Assembly: GCA_023145965.1 (NCBI GenBank)
Contig: JAGLDC010000050.1
Location: forward strand, 1 to 41,030
DNA: 41,030 nt
Direction: 5' to 3'
From: a bacterium
GTDB taxonomy: Bacteria > UBP14 > UBA6098
A program made the translations under genes and the position numbers. This document shows positions 22,010 through 41,030 of the stretch, piece by piece. Numbering within the stretch: position 1 is the first letter of the stretch; the number at the start of each line of letters is the position of its first letter. The notes below the pieces were generated by a model, which was given only the letters and a program-made list of their open reading frames with translations, did no database searches and was not told the origin of the DNA.

Positions 22010-25000
22010 CTATCTCAGCAGCACTACTGTGCCGTTACAAACAATCTCGCCTTCTACAATAATAATATAAAGATATAATCCTTCGGGAGCCGGCACACCC
22101 TTGCTATCAAGGCCGTTCCATGTTCTGCCAGCATAATCCTCATAAGAAGCCGCCGGGCTTATCTCACTTCGCCACACCTCTATGTTACGCGAGTTGAATA
22201 TCACAACAGTACCCTCTTCGGACATCATGTTCGGATATGTGAACGCTGCATTATCATTGATACCATCATAATCCGCTGTGATTGGATTTGGGAAAACCGC
22301 ACAACCGACCTCTGGTTCGATAAGAAACTGCCATTCGAACTGCGCTGAATTAGCATCGCAACGATCGGGTGAGTCATATACTGTGATTCCTACAAAGACA
22401 GTATCGCCCGCGATAAAGCTAATATTGTGGTTTTCCGGAATAAAGCCAAGTATGCCATCGTTTTCGCTTGTATAACTCCAGGAGAATTCGTGGTATTCGT
22501 ATTCGACGCCATCGATGTTCAGTATCAGCGCCGTCGGATCGACACCGGAGAGTATGTCCTCGATTTCGATATCGATGTTCTGTTGAACATCGCGGGTCAT
22601 ACTGTTTTCGACCGGAAGCGTCATTTGCGCGGTGGGCGGTGATAAATCGACCGTAAACATGAAGTCGAGCGTCGAAGTGATGTCATTGCCAAAAATATCC
22701 TCGGCGCGAAGCAGGCTAATGTTCACCACTGTGGCATCATTCCACATAGGCAAAGGCCGGAAGATGAGCAGCGGTTCCGCCCATTCGAGTTCTGAATCGT
22801 CTGTGGTATAGCTGATCGAATTGACCTCGAGCTCGATTGTCAATTCGACAACGCCATCCGGATCTTCGATACGTATAACTATGCTCTCGGGATCGCAGGC
22901 AGTAAAATCGCCATCTTCAGGCGTAACTATTGAAGGTACCGGCGGATTTGGATCTCGGACGAACCACGCAAAATGTGTGGTGTCGATGTTAGGATCGCAG
23001 TAGTCCGGCGAATCCGCTGCGACAATCTCGAAGATGATAGAATCGCCCGGTATCCATAAAAGCCCCGCGCCTGCTGCATCGAAAAGGAGTGTCGGATCGG
23101 CCCAGGATGGATTAGCACCGGCGGAATAAGGTGTTCCATCAATAATCGCAACTATCGATGTGGGGTCTATTCCGCAGCCAATTTCGAGAATATCGAATTG
23201 GAAACTCGCTGGCGAAGATGTCTGATCCACAAGCGGTGGCGAAAAGACGCTCGGCACCGGCGGCATCAGATCGACGAAGAAGCTCCACCTAAACGGAAGG
23301 CCGTTAACCGTGTTGCCATCGGTGTCTTCCGCGCGCTCGAGGCTGACATTGACCTGCTGACCGTTAGTCCATAGCTGCCACGGTGTGAATGTCAGAATCG
23401 AGTCTTCGACCCAGGTGACGACAGTGCCATCGACGAGATATATGCTGTCCTCAATGACCAACTCGAATGTCGCGGGGTCGAGCGCGAGGCCGCTGTCCGG
23501 CTGAACTATTTTAAGCGCGATAATCTGGTCGTCGCATGCCGACCACGCGCCATCGAACGGTTGGATTATCTCCGGAGTGCCTGTCTCGCAGGGATCCATA
23601 TAAAACGGCGGATCGAAGCCGCCGGCAAAAGTATCGCCGGGGACGAACACTCCGCCGGTTGTACTATCCGGATACCAGACCCACATTGTATCTCCCGCGC
23701 AGTCGATTGGATAACAGAAATTATAGGATTCGATGAACCACCAATGCATTTCGCCGCATGGGAACGGCCCAACGGTGTAACATGTGTCGGTGATTTCCTC
23801 GACAACGAGGCCGCTGTCGAGATAGACGTCGAAGTAAATCGGCGCGGTGCCGCTCGGCATCTCCCAGCAAAGTTCGACCGTGCCGGGCGTAAGCGTGTCG
23901 TCCGGTTCGGGGCTATGCCACGCGAATGGCCCGGGTGCTTCGTGCTCGTAATGGACGACCATGGTATCGTAGGCCGTGCAGCCAACGCCGTCTATTATTT
24001 CGAGGACAAGCGTCGTCGTCGATTCCGGCGCGAATTCGAAGCTCGAATCAGTGGAAACGACCGCTCCATCGAGGTCTCGCCAAGTAATCGAAATCGGATT
24101 AACTGGCGAACCAAATAAAACCGGCGGACAACCCACTGTGCCGATGCCATCCGGGCAAACCCAAATATCGCCGCCCGCGTTCGCTGTAAAGCTGCTAATC
24201 GAAACATAAACGGTATCCATCGCTGTGCAACCTGTGGAATCGGTGACGAGGATGACATATTGCGTAACAGCGCCAATCGGCGGCGTGGCAACGATATCCT
24301 CGATATGTCCGTCAATATAAGCCCCGGCTGGCGCCCAGATATAGGTGAAGGGCGGAGTTCCGCCTGTGGTCGTCGCGTTAATCGGGAAGCTAAGACTGCC
24401 GGGCGCTTCGCAGATCACAGTGTCGGGCATATCAATTGTAACAACAAGGTCGCAGTCGATGATGAAGATATCCCAACATGTCGTGTCGATATTCGCGTCG
24501 CAATAATCCGGCGAGTCGCCCGATATCGCGCAGAATGTTATCGTATCACCACGCGGGAAAATGTATCCGGCGCATTCGAGGTCGATAACAAAATCGCCGG
24601 CAAGAGTATCGTATGTGACACACGGATCGCCGATGCAATGAACATCCGAAAATCCGGAGCCACTCACTTCGATACAAACCAACGACGGATCGACGCCGGA
24701 AAGAGCGTCAACAACGTTGAATCCTGCGGAGGTCGTGAAACCGGGGGCATAGCCGCCGGTCGGTGGAATCAACCCCGTAGCAACAGGCGCAGTATAATCA
24801 ATTGTGAAGCTGAAGACAAGCGGCGAGACGATATCGACGCCATAGATATTTTCCGCGTGAAGCAAAGAAACATTCACGGCATCGCCATCCGACCAAAAAT
24901 CCGTTGAAGGTGAAAATATAAGTATATTAGGTGCGTGGAAGGTCAGGAAGGCATCAGTTGTAGCATACGAGACGCCGTCGATCTCAAGCTCAATCGTAGC

Positions 25001-28000
25001 TTCGACAATGCCCGAGGTATCGTCTATCTGGATAATTATGCTTTCGGGATTGCAGGCCGAGAAGGTTCCGTCGAGGGGGCGAATAACGCTTGGTATCGGG
25101 CCATCACAGGGGTAGGTGCGGAAGGTCCGCCCCGAATCGGTAGCTACTGCCGAGTATTCATTGTCGGGACCTAAGAAAATGTATGTTGAATCGCCTATCG
25201 TATCAGCAGTGCAATAGAAGTATTCCGTTGCACAATGGTTATAGGCCACTACTCCCCAACTATGAGTCTCTCCGCAAGGGAAATCCACTGCAAAGGTTGT
25301 TTCTGAGATTGCAGTAGCAACAACCGCATCATCGACTATTACATCGTATGTAAATTCCGGAGAACCACCCGGGCTCTGCCACAGGAGATCAATCGAAGTC
25401 GGCGATGGCGGAAGTAATGAGCCAGCTGTTGGTGAAATCATAACCGGCTCACTCGTTGGGATAAAATCTACAGTTATAGTAATTGTGTCCCAGTCCTCGG
25501 TGGAAATCAAAGCGTCGTCTGTAACATGAAGAATATAACTCGTTGTGGTCGTGGGATATATAGTGGGATTCGGATCGCCACTCGTCCACGAACCGCCAAT
25601 CTGTGACCATTCCCACATATATGGGGCAATACCACCATAGGCGCTCGGGTGACACCCGAGCTCTATTGAGTCACCCGGACACACTGTTACATCTACACCT
25701 GCATGAACATAAACATGAGGTGGCGGCATGATTAATGTCCAGCAAGAATCAAAAGAATTAGCGCTACATGTATCCGGTGCATCGGCCATGTGAAGGCAAA
25801 TCTCTATAGTGTCGCTTTCTGGGAAATCGAGCCCTAAGGCTCCAGCATCCCAAGTAAGACATGTATCATCTGTTATCCATCCGCTGCCGAAGGTATAAGG
25901 AACACCCTCGACATTTAATATTACAGAATCTCCATCTACTCCGGCAACCTCATCCGAAATGCAAAAATCGATCACCGGGCTTGTCGAGGATATCTCTGTT
26001 CCAGGGGAAGGCGTAACACCATAAACAACCGGCGGAACGAGATCCATGTAGAAAGTTATGCAAACAGAATCGAGCATGGCATGGGCCATGGAGTCCATAA
26101 GTTCGGCTAAGCACACGGTAACTGTCTCATGTTCACTCCACACTACAGAGGGCACAAGGCAAAGCTCACCAGACATCGGTGAGATTGCCGAATAGGTGAG
26201 GAGCCCTGAGGCATAATCGTAAACTGTTCCATTGGCAACCACAACAGCGCTTGCGGGATCGATTCCATTGGAAGCCTCGACAAACCAGCAAACACCTTGG
26301 TAATCGCATGCACTGATAGTTCCCATATCGGGCAGGATAACCATAGCTGTGGGAGTCGCAAGATTAACTATTAGCATCCAACAAGTGTCAGCCGCATTCG
26401 GATCACAATAATCCGGATCATCGCGCGAACCCCTGAGGCAGAAATTTATCGTGTCACCATCGGAAAAGCTAAGCCCTAAATCAAGTAGCGAAGCAGTAAA
26501 AGTTATTCCATCCCACGAGAGACCTGCTGTTGGTAGTGTATAACTTAAGCCTTCGATTGTGATATAAATCTCATCATCAACAAGGCCAAGACCGTCATCA
26601 TGGGGACGAATAGAAACAGTCGGCGAAGCACCAACGAAAGTGCCTGGAAGCGGTGTGATGTTCGTGAAATAAGGAGGCGTTAAGTCGATTGTAAAGTTGC
26701 CAGAAACAGCGGTGGGTAAGGATGAACCGGAAATACTTCTTGCTGCGATCAAGCTGAATGAGTGCAAACCCTCTGTCCAACACGGCATTGTGGGCTGGAA
26801 GACCAGCGTATCAGCAAAATATGTCAGTCGAGGATCGGTGATTCGATAAACCACACCATCAACTTGAAGCTGGATTGTCGTGTCATCAATAGCAATATCA
26901 TCGTGGAGATATATAATAACCGGTTGACATGTGCATGCACTAGCCACAACACCATCGAGATTGATATCGAGAGGTTCGACAACCCAAGCCTCGGGTGTCG
27001 ATAGGCGAATATAAAATTCCCAACAGAACGAAGTGTCATTCGGTGGGCAGTATGTGTAGCCGGGAGCATCGAATAAACTATCGAGACATATTCTAACGGT
27101 ATCCCCATCGACAAAAGTCAGACCAGTAATACTGAGATGAGAACCATCCCATATGGGTGTCAATCCACTCACCGGAACGCCGTCAACAGTTACAGTAATA
27201 TAATTAAAGCTCTCGGGACTAACCCCCGCTGGCAGGTCTTCTATATCAAGACCGATAGTCGGCGAGGCGTTATAAAGTGTGGTATCGTTCGGCGGGATGG
27301 TATCTGTTATCACCGGTGGTTCAAGATCGACTATAAAAGTGCATGGTTCCACAGTAACTGCACAATAAGCGTAGTTCATTGCCTGTGCCAATTCAGCAAC
27401 GACGGTTGAACCGTGCGCCCATCCGGGATCGGCGGGAGTGAAGGTCGCAATAGTCGTTCCGGCGGATGCCGTAGTAACGACCAGCTCAACTCCTGGGTAA
27501 TAAGTAACACCGTTCACAATGGCTATTGTCGATTCCGGAATCACACCGACAACATCGTCTAACATCCACCAAACGATCTCTTGATTATAACAGGAAGTAA
27601 CAAGACCGCAAGGCTCCGGGATTCTCCTACCAGCAATCGGAGACTCGACAACGGTTATTCGGCAAGTATCGACATCTGAGAAGTCGTTAGAGTCTGTAAC
27701 AGTAACTATATAATCGGTAGTTACAATCGGGAAAACGCTAGGATTCGCAAGGAAGCTTGAAAAACCGGATGGTTCGCTTTGCCATGAAATTCTATAGGGC
27801 GGCGTTCCGCTATCGGCTGTGGGATCTCCTCCGATTGTAACCGTGTCGCCCATACAAATAGTCGTATCCCATCCAGCATTGGCAATAGGAAAAACAGGAA
27901 GAACAACCATGACATCATCCTGAGATCCGAGAAGACCGCCTGCATTACCAGAGGTAGTTCCCGAATCATCGACTACGATTATTGAGTTATCAAATAAACC

Positions 28001-29770
28001 CTCGACACCAAATTCAATATCCACAGAAAAAGTAATAACAATAGAATCCCCTTCAGATGTGCTAAACCAACCCCATTCAAGAATTGAATCACCAGGAGAT
28101 GGATCGAGAACACTATCGCGAGTCGCAGTTCCGAATAATTCTATAGTTGCTGGCGTTGTGCCGTATGTGAAACCCGGGGGCAGAATGTCCGCAAATTGAA
28201 TACCATATCCCGGATCACCACCACTCTGAACAAGGACAATGCGCCATGTCGTGTATGTCCCACTCATTGCCGGAGTGTGTGTGCAATATTTAATAACAGA
28301 ATAATCCGCATTAATTGGATTAAGGTTCTGCCCTGCAACAGCAGCATAGGAAGCCCAATCGTTATCATAACCATACATCTGAATAAGCATGGTCGTATCA
28401 GCTTCGAGGATATGCGCACCAGGATCGAGTTCAATCCTCGCGCCGCGTAGCGTGGTGCCGGGAAGATTGAACCATGCAGTCGAATAGGATGGCGGACCGC
28501 CATCGAGAACAATCGAAGCCTCGTGTCCCGATACAATTGTAACATTCAAATAATCATTTGTGTATCCTGATGGAGTCATGAAAATATAGCGCTTGGAATA
28601 CTGCTCCTCAGGAGGAACAACCATAAATGCCGGGTCACCGAGGGGATCATCACCCAAACCGGTGAAAAAATCCGGTTCGCCTTTAGTTAAAACACCACCA
28701 ACAATAAATTGCCCTACAAGAATAGGCTCATCGGAGGTGATTCTCGTGGGGCTATCGAGCAGCTTACCATCACAATCGGCAGCATAACCTAGAAGAGGTA
28801 AATAACTGCCCGCATCGCATGGTTGACCATTCCACTCCCATGTTTCACCGCGATTCAGTGTAACTGGAGTAGTGCCACTTGCATCCACTATCGTGATGTT
28901 CGTCCCATCGACAGATGCGACTATTTTTAAAACGTCCTCTTCCCAATCATTTCTGGGCTGAATCGGAAATACATTGAATATTTTCCCCCAAGCAGATAGT
29001 GGCGGCATCTGTTCGATAAGATAATCCGCTGCAGGAATTGTGTTGGGAACTTGCGCTATCTGACTTCCAGAAATAATAGCAATGGGTTTATCTGAAGTTA
29101 TCTCAGAACCAGTTAAATCATAAAGCGTTGTCGAATTGGGTGAATTGGCTAAAACTTGATAACAATCATAGCTATTCAAAGTAATATTCCACGGAACACC
29201 TGCAGAATGCCCCCCCTCTGTTGGAACAGGTGTTGTTATCTGCACATTCGTGCCATCGAAGGGAGCTACTATTGTAAACATACTCGGGCCACGATCGATT
29301 ATCAATGGATTATAAGCAGGTATATTGTCCCGCCAACACATAGTGATATACTCTGTCCCAAGACTGGGTACTGGAAAAACAAGAGCCATATCGTTTGTCG
29401 AGCCAGGAGTCCTGTAGGAAAGGAAATAGGCCGATATCGGATTGTCTGAGTGTATATACAAACCCTTGGAAACTATAACTTCAGATTCCGTGATCCAATG
29501 GGTGCTGTCTATGGCTACTGTCGTGACAGAATTTGGCGGTATCGTGAATGGAACATTGAAAGTCCCGCTAGCATTGCGAATATAACCCGTCGATGCCCAT
29601 GTCGATGTAAGAATCAGCTCACCATCAAAAACCGAAGCAGGCGGAATAGGTATTCCAACCGGCTCTCGACAAGCATTGGCAGGATAACAAATATAAAAAT
29701 CGGTCCCGAGATTAGTGAAACCAAAAATTATTGACGAAAATAAAATCAAAATAAATATCGCATTTTTCAT
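22010..29770 (-). CDS. Giant exported multidomain surface protein with IgGFc-binding-type head
   Basis: 2586 residues from the chosen ATG (29768-29770), preceded by GGGAGATATT; an in-frame ATG at 29839 would bury the signal peptide. Order: signal peptide 1-18; IgGFc-binding N-terminal-type domain 20-483 (DLTGSEITSDKPIAI, YLIEQMPPLSAWG); DUF11-like domain 490-627; PKD-like domain 628-710; three A/B Ig-like pairs 710-1346; PKD-like 1350-1436; fibronectin-III-like 1440-1560; fourth A/B pair to 1770; two PKD-like domains to 1940; fibronectin-III-like to 2056; A/B pairs five and six to 2483; C-terminal sorting domain 2487-2586, ending CNGTVVLLR. Boundaries are approximate. B halves share the SPDYC...CW motif. 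It is probably exported by a type IX-like system and anchored on the surface, perhaps as an adhesin or glycoprotein-binding fibre. Heads of this family were named for IgG Fc binding in a mucus protein; ligand here unknown. Confidence 0.9.
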   Translation of the reverse strand: MKNAIFILILFSSIIFGFTNLGTDFYICYPANACREPVGIPIPPASVFDGELILTSTWASTGYIRNASGTFNVPFTIPPNSVTTVAIDSTHWITESEVIVSKGLYIHSDNPISAYFLSYRTPGSTNDMALVFPVPSLGTEYITMCWRDNIPAYNPLIIDRGPSMFTIVAPFDGTNVQITTPVPTEGGHSAGVPWNITLNSYDCYQVLANSPNSTTLYDLTGSEITSDKPIAIISGSQIAQVPNTIPAADYLIEQMPPLSAWGKIFNVFPIQPRNDWEEDVLKIVASVDGTNITIVDASGTTPVTLNRGETWEWNGQPCDAGSYLPLLGYAADCDGKLLDSPTRITSDEPILVGQFIVGGVLTKGEPDFFTGLGDDPLGDPAFMVVPPEEQYSKRYIFMTPSGYTNDYLNVTIVSGHEASIVLDGGPPSYSTAWFNLPGTTLRGARIELDPGAHILEADTTMLIQMYGYDNDWASYAAVAGQNLNPINADYSVIKYCTHTPAMSGTYTTWRIVLVQSGGDPGYGIQFADILPPGFTYGTTPATIELFGTATRDSVLDPSPGDSILEWGWFSTSEGDSIVITFSVDIEFGVEGLFDNSIIVVDDSGTTSGNAGGLLGSQDDVMVVLPVFPIANAGWDTTICMGDTVTIGGDPTADSGTPPYRISWQSEPSGFSSFLANPSVFPIVTTDYIVTVTDSNDFSDVDTCRITVVESPIAGRRIPEPCGLVTSCYNQEIVWWMLDDVVGVIPESTIAIVNGVTYYPGVELVVTTASAGTTIATFTPADPGWAHGSTVVAELAQAMNYAYCAVTVEPCTFIVDLEPPVITDTIPPNDTTLYNASPTIGLDIEDLPAGVSPESFNYITVTVDGVPVSGLTPIWDGSHLSITGLTFVDGDTVRICLDSLFDAPGYTYCPPNDTSFCWEFYIRLSTPEAWVVEPLDINLDGVVASACTCQPVIIYLHDDIAIDDTTIQLQVDGVVYRITDPRLTYFADTLVFQPTMPCWTEGLHSFSLIAARSISGSSLPTAVSGNFTIDLTPPYFTNITPLPGTFVGASPTVSIRPHDDGLGLVDDEIYITIEGLSYTLPTAGLSWDGITFTASLLDLGLSFSDGDTINFCLRGSRDDPDYCDPNAADTCWMLIVNLATPTAMVILPDMGTISACDYQGVCWFVEASNGIDPASAVVVANGTVYDYASGLLTYSAISPMSGELCLVPSVVWSEHETVTVCLAELMDSMAHAMLDSVCITFYMDLVPPVVYGVTPSPGTEISSTSPVIDFCISDEVAGVDGDSVILNVEGVPYTFGSGWITDDTCLTWDAGALGLDFPESDTIEICLHMADAPDTCSANSFDSCWTLIMPPPHVYVHAGVDVTVCPGDSIELGCHPSAYGGIAPYMWEWSQIGGSWTSGDPNPTIYPTTTTSYILHVTDDALISTEDWDTITITVDFIPTSEPVMISPTAGSLLPPSPTSIDLLWQSPGGSPEFTYDVIVDDAVVATAISETTFAVDFPCGETHSWGVVAYNHCATEYFYCTADTIGDSTYIFLGPDNEYSAVATDSGRTFRTYPCDGPIPSVIRPLDGTFSACNPESIIIQIDDTSGIVEATIELEIDGVSYATTDAFLTFHAPNILIFSPSTDFWSDGDAVNVSLLHAENIYGVDIVSPLVFSFTIDYTAPVATGLIPPTGGYAPGFTTSAGFNVVDALSGVDPSLVCIEVSGSGFSDVHCIGDPCVTYDTLAGDFVIDLECAGYIFPRGDTITFCAISGDSPDYCDANIDTTCWDIFIIDCDLVVTIDMPDTVICEAPGSLSFPINATTTGGTPPFTYIWAPAGAYIDGHIEDIVATPPIGAVTQYVILVTDSTGCTAMDTVYVSISSFTANAGGDIWVCPDGIGTVGCPPVLFGSPVNPISITWRDLDGAVVSTDSSFEFAPESTTTLVLEIIDGVGCTAYDTMVVHYEHEAPGPFAWHSPEPDDTLTPGTVELCWEMPSGTAPIYFDVYLDSGLVVEEITDTCYTVGPFPCGEMHWWFIESYNFCYPIDCAGDTMWVWYPDSTTGGVFVPGDTFAGGFDPPFYMDPCETGTPEIIQPFDGAWSACDDQIIALKIVQPDSGLALDPATFELVIEDSIYLVDGTVVTWVEDSILTFTPWQLWTNGQQVNVSLERAEDTDGNTVNGLPFRWSFFVDLMPPVPSVFSPPLVDQTSSPASFQFDILEIGCGIDPTSIVAIIDGTPYSAGANPSWADPTLLFDAAGAGLLWIPGDSIIFEIVAADSPDYCDPNIDTTHFAWFVRDPNPPVPSIVTPEDGDFTACDPESIVIRIEDPDGVVELTIELEVNSISYTTDDSELEWAEPLLIFRPLPMWNDATVVNISLLRAEDIFGNDITSTLDFMFTVDLSPPTAQMTLPVENSMTRDVQQNIDIEIEDILSGVDPTALILNIDGVEYEYHEFSWSYTSENDGILGFIPENHNISFIAGDTVFVGITVYDSPDRCDANSAQFEWQFLIEPEVGCAVFPNPITADYDGINDNAAFTYPNMMSEEGTVVIFNSRNIEVWRSEISPAASYEDYAGRTWNGLDSKGVPAPEGLYLYIIIVEGEIVCNGTVVLLR

Positions 29771-29811
29771 AATATCTCCCAAATACATTTTGAAAAGTGA
29801 TTCATTTAGAA

Positions 29812-29839
29812 AAGATAAATCATTATTAGTATATGTCAA
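29812..29839 (-). promoter_or_regulatory. Promoter of the giant surface-protein gene
   Basis: Minus strand: -35 TTGACA (29834-29839), 16-bp spacer, -10 TATCTT (29812-29817), about 35 bases of leader before the ATG. This gives the giant gene its own transcript apart from the upstream surface-protein genes. Confidence 0.65.
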
Positions 29840-29983
29840 GATATAAGAAGATAGACAACCATAGTTATATATATATGCTCTTCTATAACTTACCGAAACC
29901 TAAAATAAACCCTATCTAAATGCTAAATAATGCAAAAATAGCTCAAAACTAAATTCCTCACTTTCGAGGCTATTTATCTTGAA

Positions 29984-30120
29984 AAAGGCGGGGCGATAGC
30001 TCAAAATTCGCCGCCTTTGCAAATTTCGTGACAGCAAGGTGGTTTGGTGGGGATTTTTGCGAAAATAAATCGAATCATTAACTGCGGTTTTCAATAATAG
30101 CAAAAATCGCGACAGCGCAA
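29984..30120. repeat. Dispersed intergenic repeat, copy 2
   Basis: Aligns with 13401-13529 at nearly constant spacing. Shared blocks: GGCGAT and GCCG in the left arm, the identical 16-mer GCAAATTTCGTGACAG (30019-30034), GGATTTTTGC (30051-30060), TTAAC in the centre, and TAGCAAAAATCG near the right end (30098-30109). The centre is otherwise diverged. This copy also has a perfect AAAGGCGG (29984-29991) / CCGCCTTT (30011-30018) hairpin that copy 1 lacks. Confidence 0.75.
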
Positions 30121-30151
30121 AAGGAAGAAGAATTTTTAAATTATACTCCGA

Positions 30152-30179
30152 AACAACATTGGTTATAACCCATGTCGTT
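30152..30179. repeat. Nested palindrome downstream of the VWA gene
   Basis: AACAACAT-T-GGTTATAACC-C-ATGTCGTT: outer arms pair 7 of 8 (the eighth is G-U in the minus-strand RNA) around a perfect 10-bp palindrome. It lies 41 bp past the VWA gene stop. It may act as a terminator or mRNA end hairpin for that transcript, though no clean T-tract follows. Confidence 0.45.
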
Positions 30180-30219
30180 TCTACAACTTAAAGCCTTTTC
30201 ATTTTATCTTATGCTTTTC

Positions 30220-33200
30220 CTATTTTATTAGCATTCCCATAATTATATCCTCGTCAACACCAGTCGCTGCACGAAAAAGATAGAGGCCGCTAGGTAACTG
30301 AGAGCCATCATCAGCTAAACCATCCCAGGTTATTCTGTTCAACCCAGCAGACATCTCTCGATCGAAAGAATTAACCCTCCTGCCAGATATATCGAAAACC
30401 TCGAGCCTAACTCCCTTTTCCGAGGGCAATGTTAAAAGAATCGTAGCTGTAGTATTAAATGGGTTAGGATAACAACCAATCAATGTCATCTCTTCTGGAA
30501 GAATATTTTTAAACTTCAATTTATGTAATCCTACACCAATAGATACGGGATTATCATTAACTCGTTTATCATCGATGAACATCTCCCCCATCACCGGAAC
30601 ATTAATCCTAATTATCGCCTCCTCACGAAGTAATATAGTCCATTCGCCATCGGAAGCCGAAGTAGAAAGCTGAATATCTCCTTTTATCAGCGTTGCTATC
30701 CGCTCTGAGGAATATGGAGTGAGAGGTGGAATTGCGATATCGCCTGAACACAAATCCGAATTTGACATGGGCGAATAAGCTATTGAAAGTGTGGCCATTT
30801 CTCCATCTGCTATAATTTCGATAGTTCCAGTCCACTCGATTGGAATTTTGGGCTGGAATTTCCGAGAACCATCGAAAGGAACCTCCAAAATTCCATCCGA
30901 ACTGGAAAGCAGCCAATACGCGCATCCAGGGCGAAGCGAGTCGGTGGAATAATATTCTGAACCATCCCAAGCAAATATATCCCCAATGATTCCTCCCGAA
31001 GGAAATATTTCAATTTCGCTAATAGAAACCGCTTCAAACGGCGCGCCAATAAGATTCCATCCATTAAATACAATCCGAGAATAGGAATCGAGTCTTCCGC
31101 CAACAGTCATTATCGCGTAGGATGAATCCGCCCATATCCAATAACCTTGACCCTCCTGAATCAATTCGGCATTGCGATAGCTTGCCATTTCATTGGAATA
31201 GCGATAAACACTTAGCATAGTGTTAAAAACTTCTTGGGCGGGAACCACGGTCGGAAGAACAGGACTGCTAACCATATTCCATCCATTGTGAACTGTAAGT
31301 GAACAATAGGTGAATTCTGGGAAGAACCATTCGATAAGAAGTGTATCATTTAAACCGTAAGTTGCCGTTGAATCTCGTTTCATATCGACAATCCCTTCAA
31401 GGCGGAATTCACCCTCCGGCAAATCTGCTGGATTCCAATGAATTGTGCCGTTTGGCTCATCGAAAGTCGCAAGATTCCATGCTCTCGGTGGAAAAGGACA
31501 ACGAATATCACGCAAAAGCCCTGCTATATGAGGATAAGCGGCGTCATCGAAGACAAAACGGCCATCTACCATCCAATCTGGAGCGGGAACATCGATAATG
31601 TCAATACCATAGTCATAAGAATCTCCAGCACCCCATGTTGCCCCAAAGGTAACAACTCTATCAAAATGATTGGGTAGATGTGTTCTATTAAGATATAAAT
31701 CGCAAGTGAAAACCTCGGGCGTAAGCGTAACATAGAAGAAACCATCTGAGGTCTCGACTAATGGGAAGCCCAGATTGAACTCGAAACCGGTTATATCTAT
31801 TGAAGTATATTGACCTCCTAATGCGTCGCAGTTAACAATTGCACGCAAGAAAAGAAAATCGCCACCGGAGCCACTGGAAAGCGGGGCACCAATTATTGTC
31901 GCACTGACTAAACCAGTTTCTTCATCAATATCGATAGTATCCACTAACCAACCATCCGTGAGTGTTCCTGAAGTCACAAGTCCAAGCGGAATAAGAACAT
32001 TAGGATCGACGGTGAATGTCATCTCAGCCGAACCGATAACAGACATTTCGAGACCGTCGATAGAAAGGGGAATCAATACTGTATCACATGGCGCACCAAA
32101 CATGATAGGGAACCCAACCTCGCGACTTGCTGCAGCGGCAAAAAACTCCCAGCATGTTGGTTCCATCTGGTTTGGTGAACAATAACAATAATCCGGCGAA
32201 TCAAATAACTCGGAGATACATACCCGAATGACCCCGCTTCGCTCAATTATTACAGTATCAATGCTTACAATAGCGGTATCTTCGTGTAGAGTCCAGATGG
32301 GCCCTGAAGTATCGAGCGTGTCTGAATCCATTGTTACATCGATTCGTGCAGGAATTGACAACGGCGATATTCCTGAAAATTCATCTATTAGATTTGCACT
32401 GATCGAAACTTCCCCTACGAAAAGAGTATCGTCTTCGCTCGGGTAATGATAGATAAGCTCCGGAGGCTGAAGATCAACATAAAATGTGCACGGAGATTCC
32501 ACTCCAATGCATCCCCAATTATTGACCAATTCCACGAACTCGAAAACAACAGTATCACGATGTGCAAATGTTGTTTCTGGAAAAAAGAACATGGTATCAC
32601 CGGCTATAGAAACATCGAAAGCCACTTCGATTCCGTCCACTTTAATTCCAAGATTATAATCAGTTATATAACCATATTCTGGGTTAGTGTGAAGCACTTT
32701 TATCCATTGGTTAGCACATGAGGTTATGCCTCCACAAGGGGAAGGCATTAGTATATCAATGCGCGGTTCACAGAAACTGTTGTATGTCGAATCGTCCCAA
32801 CCTATGAAATCAACACTATTCTCCACAACAACATTGAAAATAACATCTGTAAGTTCGCAAAACTTGGACGTTAGATATTCAAATTCGTAACAACAAGGTA
32901 TATTTCCCAAGGCAAGCCCGAGACTCTCTACCATTGCGCTGTATTCAGCATCATATAGGTCACTCCAGATACCACCGGTTGACTCAGCAAGAACACGGTA
33001 TCCGGCATAATAAGCTCGATCCGGACTATCGCCAGAAAGAGGATACCACTCCATATCGGAATCGGGTGGGCATACCGCAAAAAAAGTTACGGAATCACTC
33101 GAGCAGTAATCCATGATTTGATACAGAGAAGAATCGGAATAGTCGTAATATGGCAAACATGGTGGCGAAACAATCTGCACTTCCTCATCTGTGAACATGA

Positions 33201-33834
33201 CGACAGCTTTATGACAACCAGGACGCCAATCGAGTGTATCGATTATCCAGTGAAGAGCACCGTATTGGTCCTCATGACCACTTCCTCTCAATGCCCATGG
33301 GAGTGAATAATAGAACAGCGTTGCCTGAAATAGCATGTAAAAATCTGTAGGATTATCAGCCCACATGTCCGTTCCAACAGTGCAAGGCGGCGCGGCGGAA
33401 AAATCCGTCAACACCATATGTCTAAGACCATTTATCTCCGCAGGACATCCATTAAAGATGGCAATACAAATACGATAATCAATGCCGGCGAGACCGGCAG
33501 TGAATATCGATAGCGCCGAAGAAAAAGTCGAAACATCGTCGTCCATCGAGCCAGAAAAATCCATTAGGAGAACAATATCGATGTATGGTGCCGGGCATTC
33601 ATTAAGTTGCCTAATACTTGGTGGAACAACAGGTGTTCCATTTTCAGAAAAAGAGAAATCCTCCAATTCAAGTTCGGGTGTATATCGTCCGAGGGAATCG
33701 AAAACGCAAACCATCGTGTAAATTGTTTCGCAATCGTCTGATTTGATTATTTCCTCGATTTGGACATCACCTGACTGAGCGAAAATTGAAATGGCGGCTA
33801 TTAAAGCCGCCAAGATTGGATTTTTTATTTTCAT
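30220..33834 (-). CDS. Exported surface protein with von Willebrand A and cohesin-like domains
   Basis: 1204 residues. Signal peptide 1-20. A von Willebrand A domain (about 84-300) has the metal site DFSGS at 92-96 (DIVLLMDFSGSMDDD). One A/B Ig-like pair follows (about 355-565), with SPDYC...CW in the B half. Residues 568-690 look like a cohesin-type domain (APCDTVLIPLSIDGLE, TFTVDPNVLIPL, GGDFLFLRAIV). Two GWN segments (GWNMVSSPV, GWNLIGAPF; 848-985) occur often in type IX-secreted proteins. The C-terminus (1115-1204, CYPNPFNTTATI...FDISGRRV...GLYLF) is a type A sorting/FlgD-like domain, unlike the CNGTV type of its neighbours. It lies 32 bp after the FG-GAP gene. Role inferred: surface adhesion or scaffold protein; ligands unknown. 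Confidence 0.88.
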   Translation of the reverse strand: MKIKNPILAALIAAISIFAQSGDVQIEEIIKSDDCETIYTMVCVFDSLGRYTPELELEDFSFSENGTPVVPPSIRQLNECPAPYIDIVLLMDFSGSMDDDVSTFSSALSIFTAGLAGIDYRICIAIFNGCPAEINGLRHMVLTDFSAAPPCTVGTDMWADNPTDFYMLFQATLFYYSLPWALRGSGHEDQYGALHWIIDTLDWRPGCHKAVVMFTDEEVQIVSPPCLPYYDYSDSSLYQIMDYCSSDSVTFFAVCPPDSDMEWYPLSGDSPDRAYYAGYRVLAESTGGIWSDLYDAEYSAMVESLGLALGNIPCCYEFEYLTSKFCELTDVIFNVVVENSVDFIGWDDSTYNSFCEPRIDILMPSPCGGITSCANQWIKVLHTNPEYGYITDYNLGIKVDGIEVAFDVSIAGDTMFFFPETTFAHRDTVVFEFVELVNNWGCIGVESPCTFYVDLQPPELIYHYPSEDDTLFVGEVSISANLIDEFSGISPLSIPARIDVTMDSDTLDTSGPIWTLHEDTAIVSIDTVIIERSGVIRVCISELFDSPDYCYCSPNQMEPTCWEFFAAAASREVGFPIMFGAPCDTVLIPLSIDGLEMSVIGSAEMTFTVDPNVLIPLGLVTSGTLTDGWLVDTIDIDEETGLVSATIIGAPLSSGSGGDFLFLRAIVNCDALGGQYTSIDITGFEFNLGFPLVETSDGFFYVTLTPEVFTCDLYLNRTHLPNHFDRVVTFGATWGAGDSYDYGIDIIDVPAPDWMVDGRFVFDDAAYPHIAGLLRDIRCPFPPRAWNLATFDEPNGTIHWNPADLPEGEFRLEGIVDMKRDSTATYGLNDTLLIEWFFPEFTYCSLTVHNGWNMVSSPVLPTVVPAQEVFNTMLSVYRYSNEMASYRNAELIQEGQGYWIWADSSYAIMTVGGRLDSYSRIVFNGWNLIGAPFEAVSISEIEIFPSGGIIGDIFAWDGSEYYSTDSLRPGCAYWLLSSSDGILEVPFDGSRKFQPKIPIEWTGTIEIIADGEMATLSIAYSPMSNSDLCSGDIAIPPLTPYSSERIATLIKGDIQLSTSASDGEWTILLREEAIIRINVPVMGEMFIDDKRVNDNPVSIGVGLHKLKFKNILPEEMTLIGCYPNPFNTTATILLTLPSEKGVRLEVFDISGRRVNSFDREMSAGLNRITWDGLADDGSQLPSGLYLFRAATGVDEDIIMGMLIK

Positions 33835-33866
33835 TTCATACCCCCGAAAATCGGAGTTAAAGTCAC

Positions 33867-36800
33867 TTATCGAGCAAGCACAACTGAACCGTTACAGATA
33901 ACCTTGCCATCTTGTTTAATAACATATAGATACAACCCCTCCGGCAAAAGTTTGCCCTTGGTGTCTTTACCGTCCCAGCTTCGAGCATCGAAATTCCTGG
34001 CGTCATCGATGGGGTCGATAGTTTTCGAAAAAACAGGTCTATTTCGAATATCAAATATGGTCAATTCGCCCGATTGAGTGAACATATGCGGGAAATCAAA
34101 GACCGTTACCTCGTTGATATTATCGCTGTTAGGTGTAAATGGATTGGGAATAACCAAACAGGCAATCAGCGGCTCTATAATGAAGCTATCCGTCAAGGTG
34201 TAACAATTTGCATCGCAGTAATCTGGTGAATCACAAGCCTTAAGGCTTACTTCAATTGTGTCACTGGTGTTAAACTCGATGCCTGCAAATGCTGGATCGA
34301 AAATGACAGTCCACATTCCGTCGCCCTCGTTATTCAAAATTGCGGGAGGGAATTGGATTTCATCGCCGTTAATCCAAAGACGCACCGAATCAGTATTGAG
34401 TCCGCTAAGAGGTTCATCAAGTGAAGCGGTTATTCTAGGAGCAACATCGCGAATCATTTGACTAAGCCCCATCTGAGGCGTAAGGAACTCGATCTCCGGT
34501 GCATCGAAATCAAGCCAGAAATTAAAGCAGAAAGGAGCATTAGCAATATTCTGTCCTATCCTACTCTCAGCTCTATTAAGGCATACATTCGCCATATTGC
34601 CACTTTGCCACCAACCGGGTTCAGGTGTCCAATGAAGATCGTTACTGTCACTGTCCCACCAGAGATATTCTTCATCTATACTATAAGTTATGCTATCGAT
34701 CTCCAATTCAAAGGAAATGGAATCCATCGAAACCTCAGAGACTATGTGAATAATTATCTCTTGATCCAAACAAGCGCTATATGTATCACGTTCAGGATGT
34801 TTCAAATAAGCTACAGGCTCATGCGCTAAAATGAAGAATTTCCAGCAAGTGGTAGGATTGACATTCGGACCGCAGAAACTTGTATCATCCGGAGTATCTT
34901 CCATTCCCCACATACATATCTCGATAGTATCTGCTGGCAATACACCATCATATATATCAAAATATACCGTATCCGGATCCACGCCATCACAGTGTATATC
35001 GACATTATAATCGTTAATCGGAACTCCGTTTACTTCAACAGACATATTTTCAGCTAGAACTGTAGTCGAATCGATACTCATAAAATCGTCCGCTAAAACA
35101 GCATATACTTCATCGAGAACATCATAAGAAGCATAATCCATATGATCCGGGTGAACATCGATGGTATCGGGATACATATCATCGACGATTATTGTGCACA
35201 CCGATGGAGTAGTCATACAGAAAAGTTCGTTATAGATAGTTTCGAGCTTAAACACCACAGTATCTCCATGCGGATAAAGTGGATTGGGATTATAAAACAG
35301 CCCTCCATGATATTCGTCGCCGTCCCAGTAAAGCCTTGGATCGTCGAGTGTAATAGTCTCGAGTGGCGTAGAGTTCGATTGGACTGTTAGCATTATTAAT
35401 GTATCTAACAAAGGATAGCTAGTTCCATATATCGAATCAGCAGAGATATTAAATATCAGCTCCTGCCCTGTGTTAATCACAGAACCAAGACTGTCCATGG
35501 GGCCGCAAGAAATAACATTACCGCATTCATTGGGTCTAATTCTAACTACCGCCGGTGGATAATGACAACGAGGTGTCCATGATTGTATTGGGATATGGCG
35601 ATTAGACACAATAAGCGAATTTAAACATGTAGCATGTAGCCAGAAAGAGATATCGCATGAATCGCAACTCGGATCGACTTCAAATCGCCAAATGAGAACA
35701 GTGTCAGTTTCAGGCATAAGATCGCCGATATACGTTGTGCATTGCCCCTCAATATAATCTAGGCAATTAGACCCGATCGAATCGAATTCCAAGATGCAAT
35801 GAGTATAATAAGCGATTTCCTCACAGGTGGGGTTCCAGATTTTAGCGGAGAATATAAATTCACCTATGCTATCACATTTGGCACATTGAATTGGATTGGC
35901 CAAAAGCTCCGGGCCGGGAATAGCCTCCAGGCCACAAGGAATAACTCTTTGTGCACGCCATATATTATCGACTTCCCAATGTAGTTGAGCGGAAGTGTCC
36001 GACAGCATGTGCATATCATCGTCAATATTAGTATAGTAATAACTACCCGTATTCCACATTCTTCTAACTGGATTCCAATCATCGTCGTCACCGTATATGT
36101 AAATACCACGATTAGTGGACGAATAGCCGCCCCTATATGTGCTAACCGCGAATTCTGCGTGACAGTCGTTATCCAAGTCTGCTATAGGTACAAATCTATT
36201 AGGATCAGGACGATAATCTCCATCAAAATCGTCGAAGGTTGCCCAGAAATAGCCGGTTCGTCCATCGAAAACAATAAATTCGCCAGCCATGTTATAGCTA
36301 CAAAGGTCCCATACGCCGTCACAACTGAGGTCGGCAGCGGACATAGAAATTATTTCCCCTGAAGTAAATGGATCGGTTTGCCAGAATATTGTTCCATCGA
36401 CACGAACAACAGTAATAATACATTGCGAGCTCGAGGGTGAATGATTAACCGCGAAAGCTATTTCAGGTTCTGGAGTTGCTAGATCAAAATCGGCAATAAC
36501 CGGACATTCATAATGACTGTAAACTGTGCTAACAGCATCGATAGAAATGACTTCACTTTCGAGAACACCATAACCATCGTAAATAAATATATGTGCATTG
36601 TAGCTTCCATCAACCCATTCGCAAATCACTTCAGGGTCATTATCCAAATCGATATCTGCAACAGCAATTGGTCCGCCAGGCACACGCCATAACTCTGTCC
36701 CTGTATTATCCCAACAAACAACCTCTACGTCCCCTGAACTGCCGGCTGTAATCGAAGCCAGAAGCTCATAGTTACCATCAAGGTTTATATCTTCGCAATC

Positions 36801-37406
36801 CATCGAAGCGTAAGACCTCTTTGAACCTGTATCAATTATAAGCTCGAGCGCACCAGTTAAGCCATCGAGAACAACGATTTCATAATTTGTTCCAGAACGG
36901 TTTTGTTGAGCGATAACTTCGACCTGACCATCACCATCGAAATCCGCGAGAAGGACCTCGTGACCGGCATTGCTGTAAAAAGCACCTCCACCATTATAAA
37001 TCCAATTGACACTTCCAGTGTTACCATTTACACTCATTACACCCATTTCACCTGGCGAATCAAAATAAACGCAACAATAAATCTCCCCTATTCCATCGCG
37101 GTCGAGATCCGCGATCGCAGGTGTGAAAACACCTCTTCCAAATCGATCAGACCAAAGTGTATCGACAGTATCATCATGGAACTTGTCAACAACAGCAATC
37201 CAACCATCCCCGGAAGATGATGAAATCGTCTCTGAACGAGAAGTTATAACAATCTCGGGATGACCATCACTGTTAAGATCTCCAATCACCGGAGAATTAG
37301 GTATTTCATTTGATCGTGTTCGTAGGTTCACCTCGACTCTAGGAATAGCATAAACGGAAGTTATTGCTAATAAAAGAATTACAGTAAACTGCCAGTTTTT
37401 TCTCAT
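33867..37406 (-). CDS. Exported FG-GAP repeat surface protein with shared sorting domain
   Basis: 1179 residues from ATG 37404-37406 (GGAG eight bases upstream); a TTG four codons earlier lies inside that ribosome site and is rejected. Signal peptide about 1-21. The first 450 residues are FG-GAP/VCBS-like beta-propeller repeats with calcium-loop cores (DLNSDGHPEI, DLDRDGIGEI, DFDGDGQVEV, DINLDGNYEL) and the closing stretch RRMWNTGSYYYTNIDDD seen in related propellers. A Cys-rich CARDB-like segment (about 490-600) follows, then two A/B Ig-like pairs, the second with SPDYCDAN. The C-terminal sorting domain starts ACLVIPNPFTPNSDN and ends ICNGSVVLAR. Gaps to neighbours are 43 and 32 bp, so it is probably in an operon with them. 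Likely a surface recognition protein; ligand unknown. Confidence 0.9.
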   Translation of the reverse strand: MRKNWQFTVILLLAITSVYAIPRVEVNLRTRSNEIPNSPVIGDLNSDGHPEIVITSRSETISSSSGDGWIAVVDKFHDDTVDTLWSDRFGRGVFTPAIADLDRDGIGEIYCCVYFDSPGEMGVMSVNGNTGSVNWIYNGGGAFYSNAGHEVLLADFDGDGQVEVIAQQNRSGTNYEIVVLDGLTGALELIIDTGSKRSYASMDCEDINLDGNYELLASITAGSSGDVEVVCWDNTGTELWRVPGGPIAVADIDLDNDPEVICEWVDGSYNAHIFIYDGYGVLESEVISIDAVSTVYSHYECPVIADFDLATPEPEIAFAVNHSPSSSQCIITVVRVDGTIFWQTDPFTSGEIISMSAADLSCDGVWDLCSYNMAGEFIVFDGRTGYFWATFDDFDGDYRPDPNRFVPIADLDNDCHAEFAVSTYRGGYSSTNRGIYIYGDDDDWNPVRRMWNTGSYYYTNIDDDMHMLSDTSAQLHWEVDNIWRAQRVIPCGLEAIPGPELLANPIQCAKCDSIGEFIFSAKIWNPTCEEIAYYTHCILEFDSIGSNCLDYIEGQCTTYIGDLMPETDTVLIWRFEVDPSCDSCDISFWLHATCLNSLIVSNRHIPIQSWTPRCHYPPAVVRIRPNECGNVISCGPMDSLGSVINTGQELIFNISADSIYGTSYPLLDTLIMLTVQSNSTPLETITLDDPRLYWDGDEYHGGLFYNPNPLYPHGDTVVFKLETIYNELFCMTTPSVCTIIVDDMYPDTIDVHPDHMDYASYDVLDEVYAVLADDFMSIDSTTVLAENMSVEVNGVPINDYNVDIHCDGVDPDTVYFDIYDGVLPADTIEICMWGMEDTPDDTSFCGPNVNPTTCWKFFILAHEPVAYLKHPERDTYSACLDQEIIIHIVSEVSMDSISFELEIDSITYSIDEEYLWWDSDSNDLHWTPEPGWWQSGNMANVCLNRAESRIGQNIANAPFCFNFWLDFDAPEIEFLTPQMGLSQMIRDVAPRITASLDEPLSGLNTDSVRLWINGDEIQFPPAILNNEGDGMWTVIFDPAFAGIEFNTSDTIEVSLKACDSPDYCDANCYTLTDSFIIEPLIACLVIPNPFTPNSDNINEVTVFDFPHMFTQSGELTIFDIRNRPVFSKTIDPIDDARNFDARSWDGKDTKGKLLPEGLYLYVIKQDGKVICNGSVVLAR

Positions 37407-37449
37407 AATATACTCCAATTATGTTTATTATGTTCTTTTCATGAGTTAC

Positions 37450-40400
37450 TTATCGAAGAAGAAGGACTGTCCCATTACAAACAACCCTAGCTTCGTTTAT
37501 CAATAAATATAAATACAATCCTTGTTTTAGCATTTTCCCCTGAGCATCTCTACCATCCCAGGCAAAAGAACCATTGAGTTCATAATGATAAACCTCGATA
37601 TTTTCAAGGTTATAAATGGTTAATTGTGCTGTTCTCGTATAACTATGCGGATAATCGAACAGCACTATATCGTTAACGTTATCCCCGTTAGGGGTAAATG
37701 GATTAGGCTCAGCAATACAACTCGTTTTAGGTTCCACAACGAATCTCCAAACTGTTGTAGTGCAGTTGGGAGAACATAGATCGGGATCGTCACAGATATA
37801 TACATGCATATCGACGGTATCCCCCGGTGTAAAAGAGAAGCCTATCTCGCTGGGTCTTATTTCGAATATTCCACCGTTTTCGCTTGAAAGCCAAATGCCA
37901 TCCTCGAAATCGATAACTCGACCATCGCATATAATCTGCAGAGTGCTTAAATCTAATCCTGCTGGATAATCTTCGAGAGAAAATTGAGTTATCTGATACT
38001 CATCAGAAGTAATCGTTCCTACAACTGGAACTAAGGGTTGAACAATGGGCGATTCCAAATCAACCATAAAAGAGAAATCTGTAGTATCAATGTTTCTTGT
38101 CCCATGAATATTATAGAACTCGACTAAAGAACCTTCGACTGTTTGATTATGCCACCAATTGACAGACGGTGTAAAATAAAGCGTGTCGTTGGTAATTTCG
38201 AGTTCGGTATCGATACCTGTGGTATATTCCCGTTCATTCAATATCATCACGGCCCCAGAATCTTCGATGCCAATACTATCAAAAAGGGCGATAACAATCT
38301 GTTGGTCATCGCAAGAAGTAATATCGTTTATATTTGGAACTACAAGCTCTGCTGTCGGAGGTGAATAAACAACACTGATCTCGAAACAAGTAGTGTCGAT
38401 ATTTGGCTCGCAATAATCGGGAGAATCAGCAGCAATAATGCATACTTCAGGGCAATCAATCCATGTATTCCCAGTTCCAGTTAGTAGAGGTGAAAAAATT
38501 ATTTCACTTCCATCCCATCCAACCGCTGCATGGCCAATATTAAAGGAATTTCCACAAAAAACAACCTGTATCGAAGCCGAATCTACACCGGTAAGAGTAT
38601 CCTCGAGTCCGATAACAATAGGTAAATCATTCGAGCCGTAGAACACTCCACCCGAGGGATCTGTGAGACTAGCCACTGGAGGAGTTAAATCTATAAGAAA
38701 ATCGAAAACAAGTGGCGAATCCAAATTGCATCCAAGGATATTATAACATGTATCGAGACGAGCGTTATGCCAGCCTTCCAACCAAGTCTGGCCAACCGGG
38801 AATTGCGCGATTACAGCGCCCATCGAAGCATCGACAGATAGATTACCCTCATTGACCGTGAAGTGATTCGTGTTATCAACCCAGATAACTACACGAGAAG
38901 AATCTACTATGGATTCTCCACCGACATTGATGACAATCTCCTGCCTTTCGCAACTCGAACTGGAGCTATCGGCTGGCGTAACAAGAGTGGCATTAGGGGT
39001 GTGAGTTCCAGAAACATCGACACATAATGTATGAAGAAAAGGCCCTATGGGATACTGCACAGTCGAAAGCCTGAATTCGTCGAGGAAAAAGCCCTCTCTA
39101 TTATCAAAACTTGTGCTTCCGAAAACAAAACGAATTCTAACAGTATCGTCGGTGTTTAAAACCCCCATGCCGATCAAATTCTGAGAAACAACCTCGATCC
39201 ATCGTCCAGAGGAGTCGCAATAAGCCATCCGGTTAGCGATTGGATTATCAACCCACTCATCGATGTATGCATCGTATCGTGGAAGGAGAAGCCCAACGCC
39301 ATACTCATCTAATTGAGTCCAACTACCATGGTTTATCTCGATTTCTACAAGGAATCCATCCTCACCATCTCGCGACCAACCAGATGGGTCAATTTGCGGG
39401 ACAGAAAGCCAATACCAGAAAGCGATATAAGCCTCAACCCAACTGGATAGATAAAAATATTCGCTTGTCAAAACAGAATAGACATGACTCGGGTATTCGT
39501 CCGAACCGTCGGAAGGTATTCCCACTACACCAAAACCAGTCACAGCGGACTCCGGACCGAAAGGCAAACGGACATCACAATAGTCAAAATTTTCATCGCC
39601 GATAAACAGCGGTTCATCTCCTTCAAAATTATCGTGATAACCAATTAATGAATCTGCGCTCGTAACAACAACATGCCAGCAATAAGATGTATCTTCGAGG
39701 GGGGGATCGAGAACTTCAATTTCCCAATAAACTGTATCCTTTTCTCCGGGAGCCATCGTTCCCAGCGGAACACTGGGCATTCCAAAACTTAAATCAAGTT
39801 CGGTGGGTAAATCAATAGTTAGAAATACTTCTTCGGCAGCCTCTCCTCCAATATTCTCGATAATAAATTCATGCGGAAAAGGATTAGGGTCCAAATGGCA
39901 ATCGACTACGCCTAGAGGATTTGGATATTCCGGTCTTCTGATAAGTTGAGCTTCTTCCAAACCACAGCTATCATATAGATCATAGATAAACCAACCGCGA
40001 AAGCCGTTGTATAAAGGATCTTCAGTAGAAAAGAGGAATTGTAATATTATATTATGTCCGGAGTATTCCGGATCAAGGAAATATGTCCATTTTATCCAGA
40101 CCCCGGGTTCTAAATATCCGCCCGACGAATAACCTTCCCAATGATCCCATCCGGGAAGACGAGAGAAAGGCGGATTCAACCAATTTAAAGTGTCCCATGA
40201 AACACCAGTATCTGTGGAAATTAAAATATACATCATATCGAAAGCATCGATATCGATACATTCGACTTCCCACCAGGTCCAGAAACTAAATGAAATATGT
40301 GCTAGTTCGTCGGTTTCTAACAAGGGACTTATAAGCCTTCCGCCATGTTCATCCTCTGAATTACCTCCGGTAAATTCAGGACCTCCAAAAGGTGAATGGT

Positions 40401-40824
40401 CGAATGGCTCACCGATAAATGATCCATTCTCTGGATTTCCATACCAAAAACAAGAATTACCTGAATGTGAAAAAGGCAAATAAGCAGGGCGTGGATCTCC
40501 AAGATCGATCATTGTGCCATAGATATCCGAATGAACGAATATAAGTTCGGGATTTGTCATCCTTTGCCATTGGCACAAAGGTCCGAACGCGGAAGTCGTC
40601 CATCCACCATCGCCAGCCTCGAAATCCTCAAAATAAGGAACAGAAACTGTAGCTGGCCTTAAACGCGGAGTAGTGTCAGACACAATCTCATATACTTTCG
40701 CCGCTTCGATCCTCTCAGACCTAGAAATCGAGATAGAAAATGCGCTGTTAGCGCAGATTATCATTATCAGCGCTAATAAAAAACCGTTCTTCAATTTTCT
40801 CCTAAAATAACGCGCTCTCCGCAT
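37450..40824 (-). CDS. Exported surface protein with jelly-roll-like head and shared sorting domain
   Basis: 1124 residues. A basic N-terminus (MRRARYFRRKLKNG) and hydrophobic core to about residue 30 form the export signal; the ribosome site is weak. Residues 68-285 (VPYFEDFEAGDGGW, ISFSFWTWWE, FRGWFIYDL) resemble MAM or immune-inhibitor-A-like jelly-roll modules that often accompany secreted peptidases, but no peptidase motif is present. A second region of the same style is at about 400-590 (FFLDEFRLS). Two A/B Ig-like pairs follow, with SPDYCEPN and DDPDLCSPN. The sorting domain begins SCIAEPNPFTPNGDN and ends VCNGTVLLLR. The gap to the partial gene upstream is 30 bp, so it is probably an operon member. 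Confidence 0.88.
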   Translation of the reverse strand: MRRARYFRRKLKNGFLLALIMIICANSAFSISISRSERIEAAKVYEIVSDTTPRLRPATVSVPYFEDFEAGDGGWTTSAFGPLCQWQRMTNPELIFVHSDIYGTMIDLGDPRPAYLPFSHSGNSCFWYGNPENGSFIGEPFDHSPFGGPEFTGGNSEDEHGGRLISPLLETDELAHISFSFWTWWEVECIDIDAFDMMYILISTDTGVSWDTLNWLNPPFSRLPGWDHWEGYSSGGYLEPGVWIKWTYFLDPEYSGHNIILQFLFSTEDPLYNGFRGWFIYDLYDSCGLEEAQLIRRPEYPNPLGVVDCHLDPNPFPHEFIIENIGGEAAEEVFLTIDLPTELDLSFGMPSVPLGTMAPGEKDTVYWEIEVLDPPLEDTSYCWHVVVTSADSLIGYHDNFEGDEPLFIGDENFDYCDVRLPFGPESAVTGFGVVGIPSDGSDEYPSHVYSVLTSEYFYLSSWVEAYIAFWYWLSVPQIDPSGWSRDGEDGFLVEIEINHGSWTQLDEYGVGLLLPRYDAYIDEWVDNPIANRMAYCDSSGRWIEVVSQNLIGMGVLNTDDTVRIRFVFGSTSFDNREGFFLDEFRLSTVQYPIGPFLHTLCVDVSGTHTPNATLVTPADSSSSSCERQEIVINVGGESIVDSSRVVIWVDNTNHFTVNEGNLSVDASMGAVIAQFPVGQTWLEGWHNARLDTCYNILGCNLDSPLVFDFLIDLTPPVASLTDPSGGVFYGSNDLPIVIGLEDTLTGVDSASIQVVFCGNSFNIGHAAVGWDGSEIIFSPLLTGTGNTWIDCPEVCIIAADSPDYCEPNIDTTCFEISVVYSPPTAELVVPNINDITSCDDQQIVIALFDSIGIEDSGAVMILNEREYTTGIDTELEITNDTLYFTPSVNWWHNQTVEGSLVEFYNIHGTRNIDTTDFSFMVDLESPIVQPLVPVVGTITSDEYQITQFSLEDYPAGLDLSTLQIICDGRVIDFEDGIWLSSENGGIFEIRPSEIGFSFTPGDTVDMHVYICDDPDLCSPNCTTTVWRFVVEPKTSCIAEPNPFTPNGDNVNDIVLFDYPHSYTRTAQLTIYNLENIEVYHYELNGSFAWDGRDAQGKMLKQGLYLYLLINEARVVCNGTVLLLR

Positions 40825-40854
40825 TATTTCAATTTAACACCTTAACTTAAATTC

Positions 40855-41030
40855 CTATCTTGCTAATACAACCGTTCCGTTACAGATTATCTCTCCATTT
40901 TGCACAATGATGTAAATATACAATCCCTCCATCATAATTATCCCTCCAGAGTCCCTTCCATCCCAGCTTCTTGGAATTATATCCGTGAGGTCTCCGTCAA
41001 CTATATCTATCCATCTCCTGAAAACCTCGA
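40855..41030 (-). CDS. C-terminus of a further surface protein, cut by right window edge
   Basis: Only the last 58 residues are visible, in an open frame. They contain SWDGRDSGG, GLYIYIIVQNGE and the terminal CNGTVVLAR, matching the sorting domains of the proteins ending at 22010, 33867 and 37450. It lies 30 bp upstream of the next gene in the same direction. What the rest of the protein carries cannot be seen. Confidence 0.88.
   Translation of the reverse strand, partial: EVFRRWIDIVDGDLTDIIPRSWDGRDSGGIIMMEGLYIYIIVQNGEIICNGTVVLAR

Follow-up and report, generated by a model that had tools for sequence, protein, structure and literature searches.

A putative disulfide-clamped double Ig module in giant exported proteins of the candidate phylum UBP14

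The stretch of DNA analyzed here, referred to as the window, is a contig of 41,030 nucleotides (C50, GenBank JAGLDC010000050.1, assembly GCA_023145965.1) from a bacterium of the candidate phylum UBP14, whose 2.5 Mb genome is 96% complete and distributed over 139 contigs. Four large frames on the minus strand of this window contain a two-part immunoglobulin-like (Ig-like) unit of approximately 210 residues, composed of halves A and B. A preliminary description of the sequence had counted 11 such pairs (six, one, two and two), and manual delimitation in the four translations (P0001 to P0004, respectively) gave the same 11, with the B signatures found where that description had placed them.

Gene 1 (22010..29770, minus, as are all of the features that follow) encodes a giant protein which, according to its translation and Pfam matches, consists of an IgGFc_binding head, PKD/SprB-like spacers, six A/B units and a CHU_C-like C-terminus, and the probable start is the ATG at 29770, chosen for the signal peptide MKNAIFILILFSSIIFG. 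The strong IgGFc_binding domain (28370..29389; PF17517, E=2.8e-61) thus stands at the head of a giant protein from an uncultured sediment bacterium. The hand delimitation placed unit 1a at 27314..27631 (A) and 27002..27313 (B, with the variant TYC..N..CW), 1b at 26672..27001 and 26360..26671, 1c at 26030..26359 and 25721..26029, and 1d at 24785..25105 and 24455..24784. Unit 1e (23258..23587 and 22952..23257) lacks both cysteines of the strand F/G pair in its B half, while each half of unit 1f (22634..22951 and 22313..22633) has a single Cys, i.e., only the pair between the domains. A C-terminal domain similar to that of type B cargo of the type IX secretion system (T9SS) follows at 22055..22294 (CHU_C E=7.6e-6, 26.4 bits against a cut-off of 27).

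Gene 2 (30220..33834) has a VWA-like head (a weak match), the single unit 2a (32461..32769 and 32131..32460), a cohesin-like region and a T9SS C-terminus. The cohesin match, at residues 584-682 after the A/B unit, is weak and below the cut-off, and a similar one is found in another locus (L047). Gene 3 (33867..37418) combines an FG-GAP repeat head, units 3a (35169..35561 and 34824..35168) and 3b (34497..34823 and 34170..34496) and a CHU_C C-terminus, and gene 4 (37450..40824) begins with a weak match to the accessory domains of sorted M36 proteases, followed by units 4a (38677..39003 and 38365..38676) and 4b (38047..38364 and 37729..38046) and a CHU_C C-terminus. The units of genes 2 to 4 were all delimited by hand.

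In the alignment of the units, the residues constant in all 11 are the Cys of Ser-x-Cys in half A, the Asp and the final Pro of the linker and, in half B, Asp-x-Pro, the Cys of Asp-Tyr-Cys (DYC) and an Asn. Two elements of the signature in the preliminary description proved to be variable, as the exact D-L-x-P-P and the Cys of the CW/CF motif are each present in 7 of the 11 units, the latter being absent from 1e, 1f, 3b and 4b. A strict DNA pattern of the motif has five matches in the window, with 0.13 expected, and the profile of the 11 units matches 128 places in the host genome (E down to 6e-74); a module matching some 130 places, with motif matches in excess of expectation, cannot be attributed to chance. 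The 134 alignable matches are distributed over 35 reading frames and add up to 26,055 residues, equivalent to 3.1% of the genome, with a longest tandem run of 15 units.

The module was found in all 17 genomes of the class that were searched, with at least 45 copies in each, so the range first given for it was correct in containing the units but too narrow for a module that spans the genome and the whole class. Weak matches were found in 11 of 44 genomes of a first set from outside the class, and in a set of 242 genomes, the best E-values within the class ranged from 6e-60 to 4e-82, in contrast with 15 of 225 others, which reached 4e-19 at best. The matches outside the class are partial, generic Ig-like stretches without the signature, and none of those read has C18 and C195 together (numbering by model columns, defined below). 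When the signature was searched by motif in 84,980 named species genomes, using a four-row alignment, 29 loci were returned, and those assignable to genomes belong to this class, e.g., UBA6098 (“UBP14”) and SpSt-1142, both of the genus of the window, while one weak archaeal match (L125) lacks the signature. No relatives were found in viral contigs or plasmids, and the absence from other lineages refers to the 225 genomes and the motif-based scan. UBP14 has been listed as Candidatus Idrufiota, with 12 genomes of 1.29-3.98 Mb from hydrothermal sediments and wastewater (PMC11382960), and UBP14 of the Zodletone spring has been named among the phyla with reductive sulfur processes (PMC9040765).

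The AlphaFold2 model of pair 1b (mean predicted local distance difference test, pLDDT, 95.8; predicted template modeling score, pTM, 0.83) is all beta and forms two beta-sandwiches, as the preliminary description had anticipated for a two-domain Ig-like module, and it has 252 fold matches in the PDB at E <= 0.001, the top ones being tandem Ig domains of titin, so that both the model and its matches indicate an Ig-like beta-sandwich fold. In this model, the loop joining the first and second strands of A contains C18, and the F-G loop, which joins the final two strands of B, contains C195. The two halves are homologous (hhalign 98%, E=2e-14). Of 91 units, 9 match Big_5 (PF13205) at E <= 0.01, and some A halves, as well as isolated B-like domains, elsewhere in the host genome do so more strongly. 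Given the homology of the halves and these Big_5 matches, the pair is most likely a duplicated and divergent Big_5-like domain.

At the level of named families, Pfam and NCBIfam place the heads and C-termini of the proteins but nothing on the units, and no family of Pfam, NCBIfam or the PDB sequences spans the pair. In the search of the window's own genome, Big_5 matched none of the window units at E <= 0.1, nor did Pfam place it on any of the four window proteins, and the curated cut-off for membership (23.6 bits) is not reached. The PDB sequence search gave only chance matches to flagellin, and none with 91 rows. The claim that the module has no named family thus holds for the pair and its signature, but has to be amended for the halves, both of which appear to be divergent relatives of Big_5.

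The pairing of the cysteines was examined by covariation in 526 non-redundant units from all 17 genomes, in which column 18 is the Ser-x-Cys of half A, column 195 the Cys of Asp-x-Pro-Asp-Tyr-Cys in half B, column 185 that of DTIxxC and column 203 that of CW. Columns 18 and 195, which belong to different domains, both have Cys in 465 units, neither in 12 and only one in a single unit (1 discordant of 478); columns 185 and 203, on neighboring strands of B, have both in 355, one in two and neither in 131 (2 of 488 discordant); and columns 79 and 96, on neighboring strands of A, have both in 73, one in three and neither in 426. The same three pairs are fully concordant in 118 full copies from the genome of the window, a pattern which the loci of named genomes repeat. 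In mean-field couplings (491 rows), the strongest pair is 185-203, followed by 79-96 in second and 18-195 in fifth place, and the number of cysteines is even in 300 of 448 units.

Relatedness among the units does not account for this concordance, since, on a tree computed after removal of the Cys columns, the two members of a pair change state jointly about 38 times for 185/203, 32 for 79/96 and nine for 18/195, nearly as often as each column changes on its own. For 185/203 and 79/96, comparisons of independent pairs along supported branches gave agreement in 7 of 7 and, with a differing partner, in 10 of 10 cases. Disulfide bonds may thus be inferred at the covarying positions, which do not include the canonical Ig disulfide from strand B to strand F, but are confined to 18-195, between the domains, and to 185-203 and 79-96, on the last two strands of B and of A, respectively. 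Units without C18 mostly have Gly in column 195 (10 of 13), the residue of the D-x-x-G-N turn common in bacterial Ig domains, which suggests that the clamp Cys took the place of this Gly. Ig-like repeats of another bacterial family (loci L085 and L190 of genome G049, and L188) have the 185-203 pair (CIRAADLGG..EYCWSF) without C195, as if the F/G bond were older than the clamp.

The junction between the two halves is also the site of other couplings, i.e., 72-134, 17-192, 15-134, 14-194, 102-190 and 102-132, which form a coherent set of interdomain pairs around the clamp. Residues D102, D132, D190 and N198 are mutually coupled, and all four are present in 471 of 498 units. This cluster, located beside the clamp, probably binds Ca2+ at the A-B junction, and its conservation and coupling would be compatible with an Ig adhesin of the SiiE type, stabilized by Ca2+ at interdomain Asp residues. 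The linker between successive units has no invariant Asp such as that of the A-B linker, which suggests a looser joint between units than at the A-B junction.

Two other arrangements of the bonds can be weighed against these data. The preliminary description had proposed a disulfide between the DYC and CW cysteines, which are both common and only 6-9 residues apart, but in 123 of 486 units only one of columns 195 and 203 has Cys, a count near that obtained by shuffling (mean 136), the tree has 38 changes in column 203 and only six in 195, and each Cys has a near-perfect partner elsewhere, so that this bond was discarded as extremely improbable. Hardly more probable is the possibility that the interdomain bond joins B to the A half of the next unit, which would make B-A the true module. 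Both cysteines are nearly always present in neighboring units, which makes most of the units uninformative in this respect, but discordance between 18 and 195 is 1 of 249 within single units and 3 of 168 between neighbors, and 11 of the top 50 couplings are interdomain within units, compared with two for B and the next A at equal sequence numbers. As couplings are nearly absent between units, and as the protein with the single unit 2a retains both cysteines, the bond from B to the next A was rejected; in addition, the strand order places both cysteines at the A-B junction, which their loops would both face if the Ig domains are stacked end to end.

On the side of export, signal peptides were read by eye in the four window proteins, and C-termini of the CHU_C, Por_Secre_tail or FlgD_ig types are found in 32 of the 35 frames of the host genome at E <= 0.01, many of them below the cut-off. 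In 20 of the 35 frames, 75-130 residues remain after the last unit, a size that fits a C-terminal sorting domain. SprA is over the cut-off in 15 and PorV in all 17 of the class genomes, both being present in the host genome, so that signal peptide, sorting domain and translocon, the features expected of T9SS cargo, are all in place, and the earlier view of the proteins as exported is borne out. The heads in the host genome include IgGFc_binding, VWA, FG-GAP, sortilin/BNR and LVIVD domains. The best reading of the A/B unit is that of a stalk segment of T9SS cargo, presumably displayed at the surface, and the lineage-specific, stalk-like use first suggested agrees with a class-wide distribution set against weak, partial matches elsewhere, with the stalk role itself still an inference.

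The overall explanation, to which a probability of roughly 0.78 is assigned, is that of a disulfide-clamped double-Ig module serving as a semi-rigid segment of T9SS stalks. The A/B unit would be one structural module of two homologous Big_5-like Ig domains arranged end to end, in which the clamp would run from column 18, in the loop that separates the first and second strands of A, to column 195 in the F-G loop of B, a second disulfide (185-203) would staple neighboring B strands in about three quarters of the units, and a third (79-96) neighboring A strands in about 15%, with Ca2+ held by the Asp/Asn cluster beside the clamp. Up to 15 of these units in tandem, placed between varied N-terminal heads and the type IX secretion domain, would act as semi-rigid segments keeping the heads off the outer membrane. 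Several results weigh against this explanation. The pTM within the unit (0.83) is only somewhat above that of the cross-unit B-A fragment (0.75, with pLDDT 93.3 and SiiE among its fold matches), and two-domain PDB chains match the pair at low whole-length TM-scores, mostly 0.3-0.5, so that the A-B angle has no solved match. The 18/195 pair is rarely lost, and its nine changes are not significant on independent supported branches alone, and none of the usual enzymes of disulfide formation could be detected in the 17 class genomes, nine of which are at least 90% complete, given that no protein passes the Pfam cut-off for VKOR, DsbB, DSBA or Thioredoxin_4.

This last result, together with the anoxic habitats and the conserved Asp/Asn beside C195, would suit cysteine pairs that hold a metal or a cofactor instead of forming disulfides. 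That is improbable, however, as 185-203 and 79-96 lie on neighboring strands and are jointly replaced by varied residues (Ser, Thr, Glu), as is typical of disulfides, in proteins that are exported and have an excess of even Cys numbers. A somewhat less improbable alternative, although still an unlikely one, is that the module has no stalk function and instead binds or catalyzes, as a lectin, an adhesin or an enzyme domain would. Its many copies and diverse sequences would be in keeping with a variable binder, but the most conserved and coupled residues cluster at the A-B junction and the module occurs in tandem with many different heads.

If the pairs are indeed disulfides, their oxidation calls for an explanation, as the exported proteins of the class are rich in covarying Cys pairs, yet DSBA, DsbB, VKOR and Thioredoxin_4 are absent at the cut-off. 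Bacteria with an even-Cys excess in their exported proteins generally have DsbA and DsbB or VKOR, and obligate anaerobes tend to exclude cysteines from such proteins (PMC12453122), and UBP14 organisms may be taken as anaerobic from their habitat. Either an unrecognised oxidase, spontaneous oxidation outside the cell or divergent family members missed by the search could be involved. It can be suggested, tentatively and with more doubt than confidence, that the phylum secretes at least 100 clamped domains per genome without DsbA, DsbB or VKOR and must therefore use an unrecognised route of Cys oxidation in anoxic habitats.

Salmonella SiiE and the Antarctic ice-binding adhesin are very long secreted proteins, with rods of tandem Ig domains stabilized by Ca2+. 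The former (2yn5) matches the cross-unit model and the latter (4p99) the pair model, but both use other secretion routes, whereas the T9SS is the route of the proteins described here, for which an interdomain disulfide that would add rigidity is also predicted. Intimin and invasin are bacterial Ig stalks which display a head and have a terminal superdomain of two domains, and the Big domains of intimin lack the canonical B-F disulfide (PMC7718877); in the UBP14 module, by contrast, the F-G and interdomain Cys pairs recur along the stalk. The tandem Ig domains of titin (Z1Z2, I9-I11), the best fold matches to the pair, belong to a eukaryotic intracellular muscle protein and provide an analogy only, and the likeness to Big_5, Big_7 and Big_3_3 is that of the Ig-like beta-sandwich, some units matching Big_5. 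The Ig-like relatives examined outside the class lack the A/B pairing with C18/C195, unlike this module. T9SS type B cargo of the Bacteroidota (SprB/CHU_C) likewise includes giant repeat proteins with a signal peptide and a CHU_C-type C-terminus, but the UBP14 proteins lie outside the Bacteroidota and have another repeat module. Published work on disulfides between the domains of bacterial Ig stalks, or on giant T9SS proteins in candidate phyla, yielded nothing directly relevant.

Elsewhere in the window, a small protein at 17054-17617 (minus) has a weak match, below the cut-off, to Siphovirus Gp157, and a fusion gene of the LpxC-FabA/FabZ type lies at 19910-21328 (plus), a kind of fusion which is presumably linked with the FCB group.

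The module represents a hallmark protein element for an almost unstudied candidate phylum, in which it fills 3% of a genome. It also offers a clean natural case of the evolution of paired cysteines, with about 80 joint changes on one tree, and exposes a gap between an even-Cys excess that is present and known oxidizing enzymes that were not found. Finally, the clamped pair may serve as a rigid building block.

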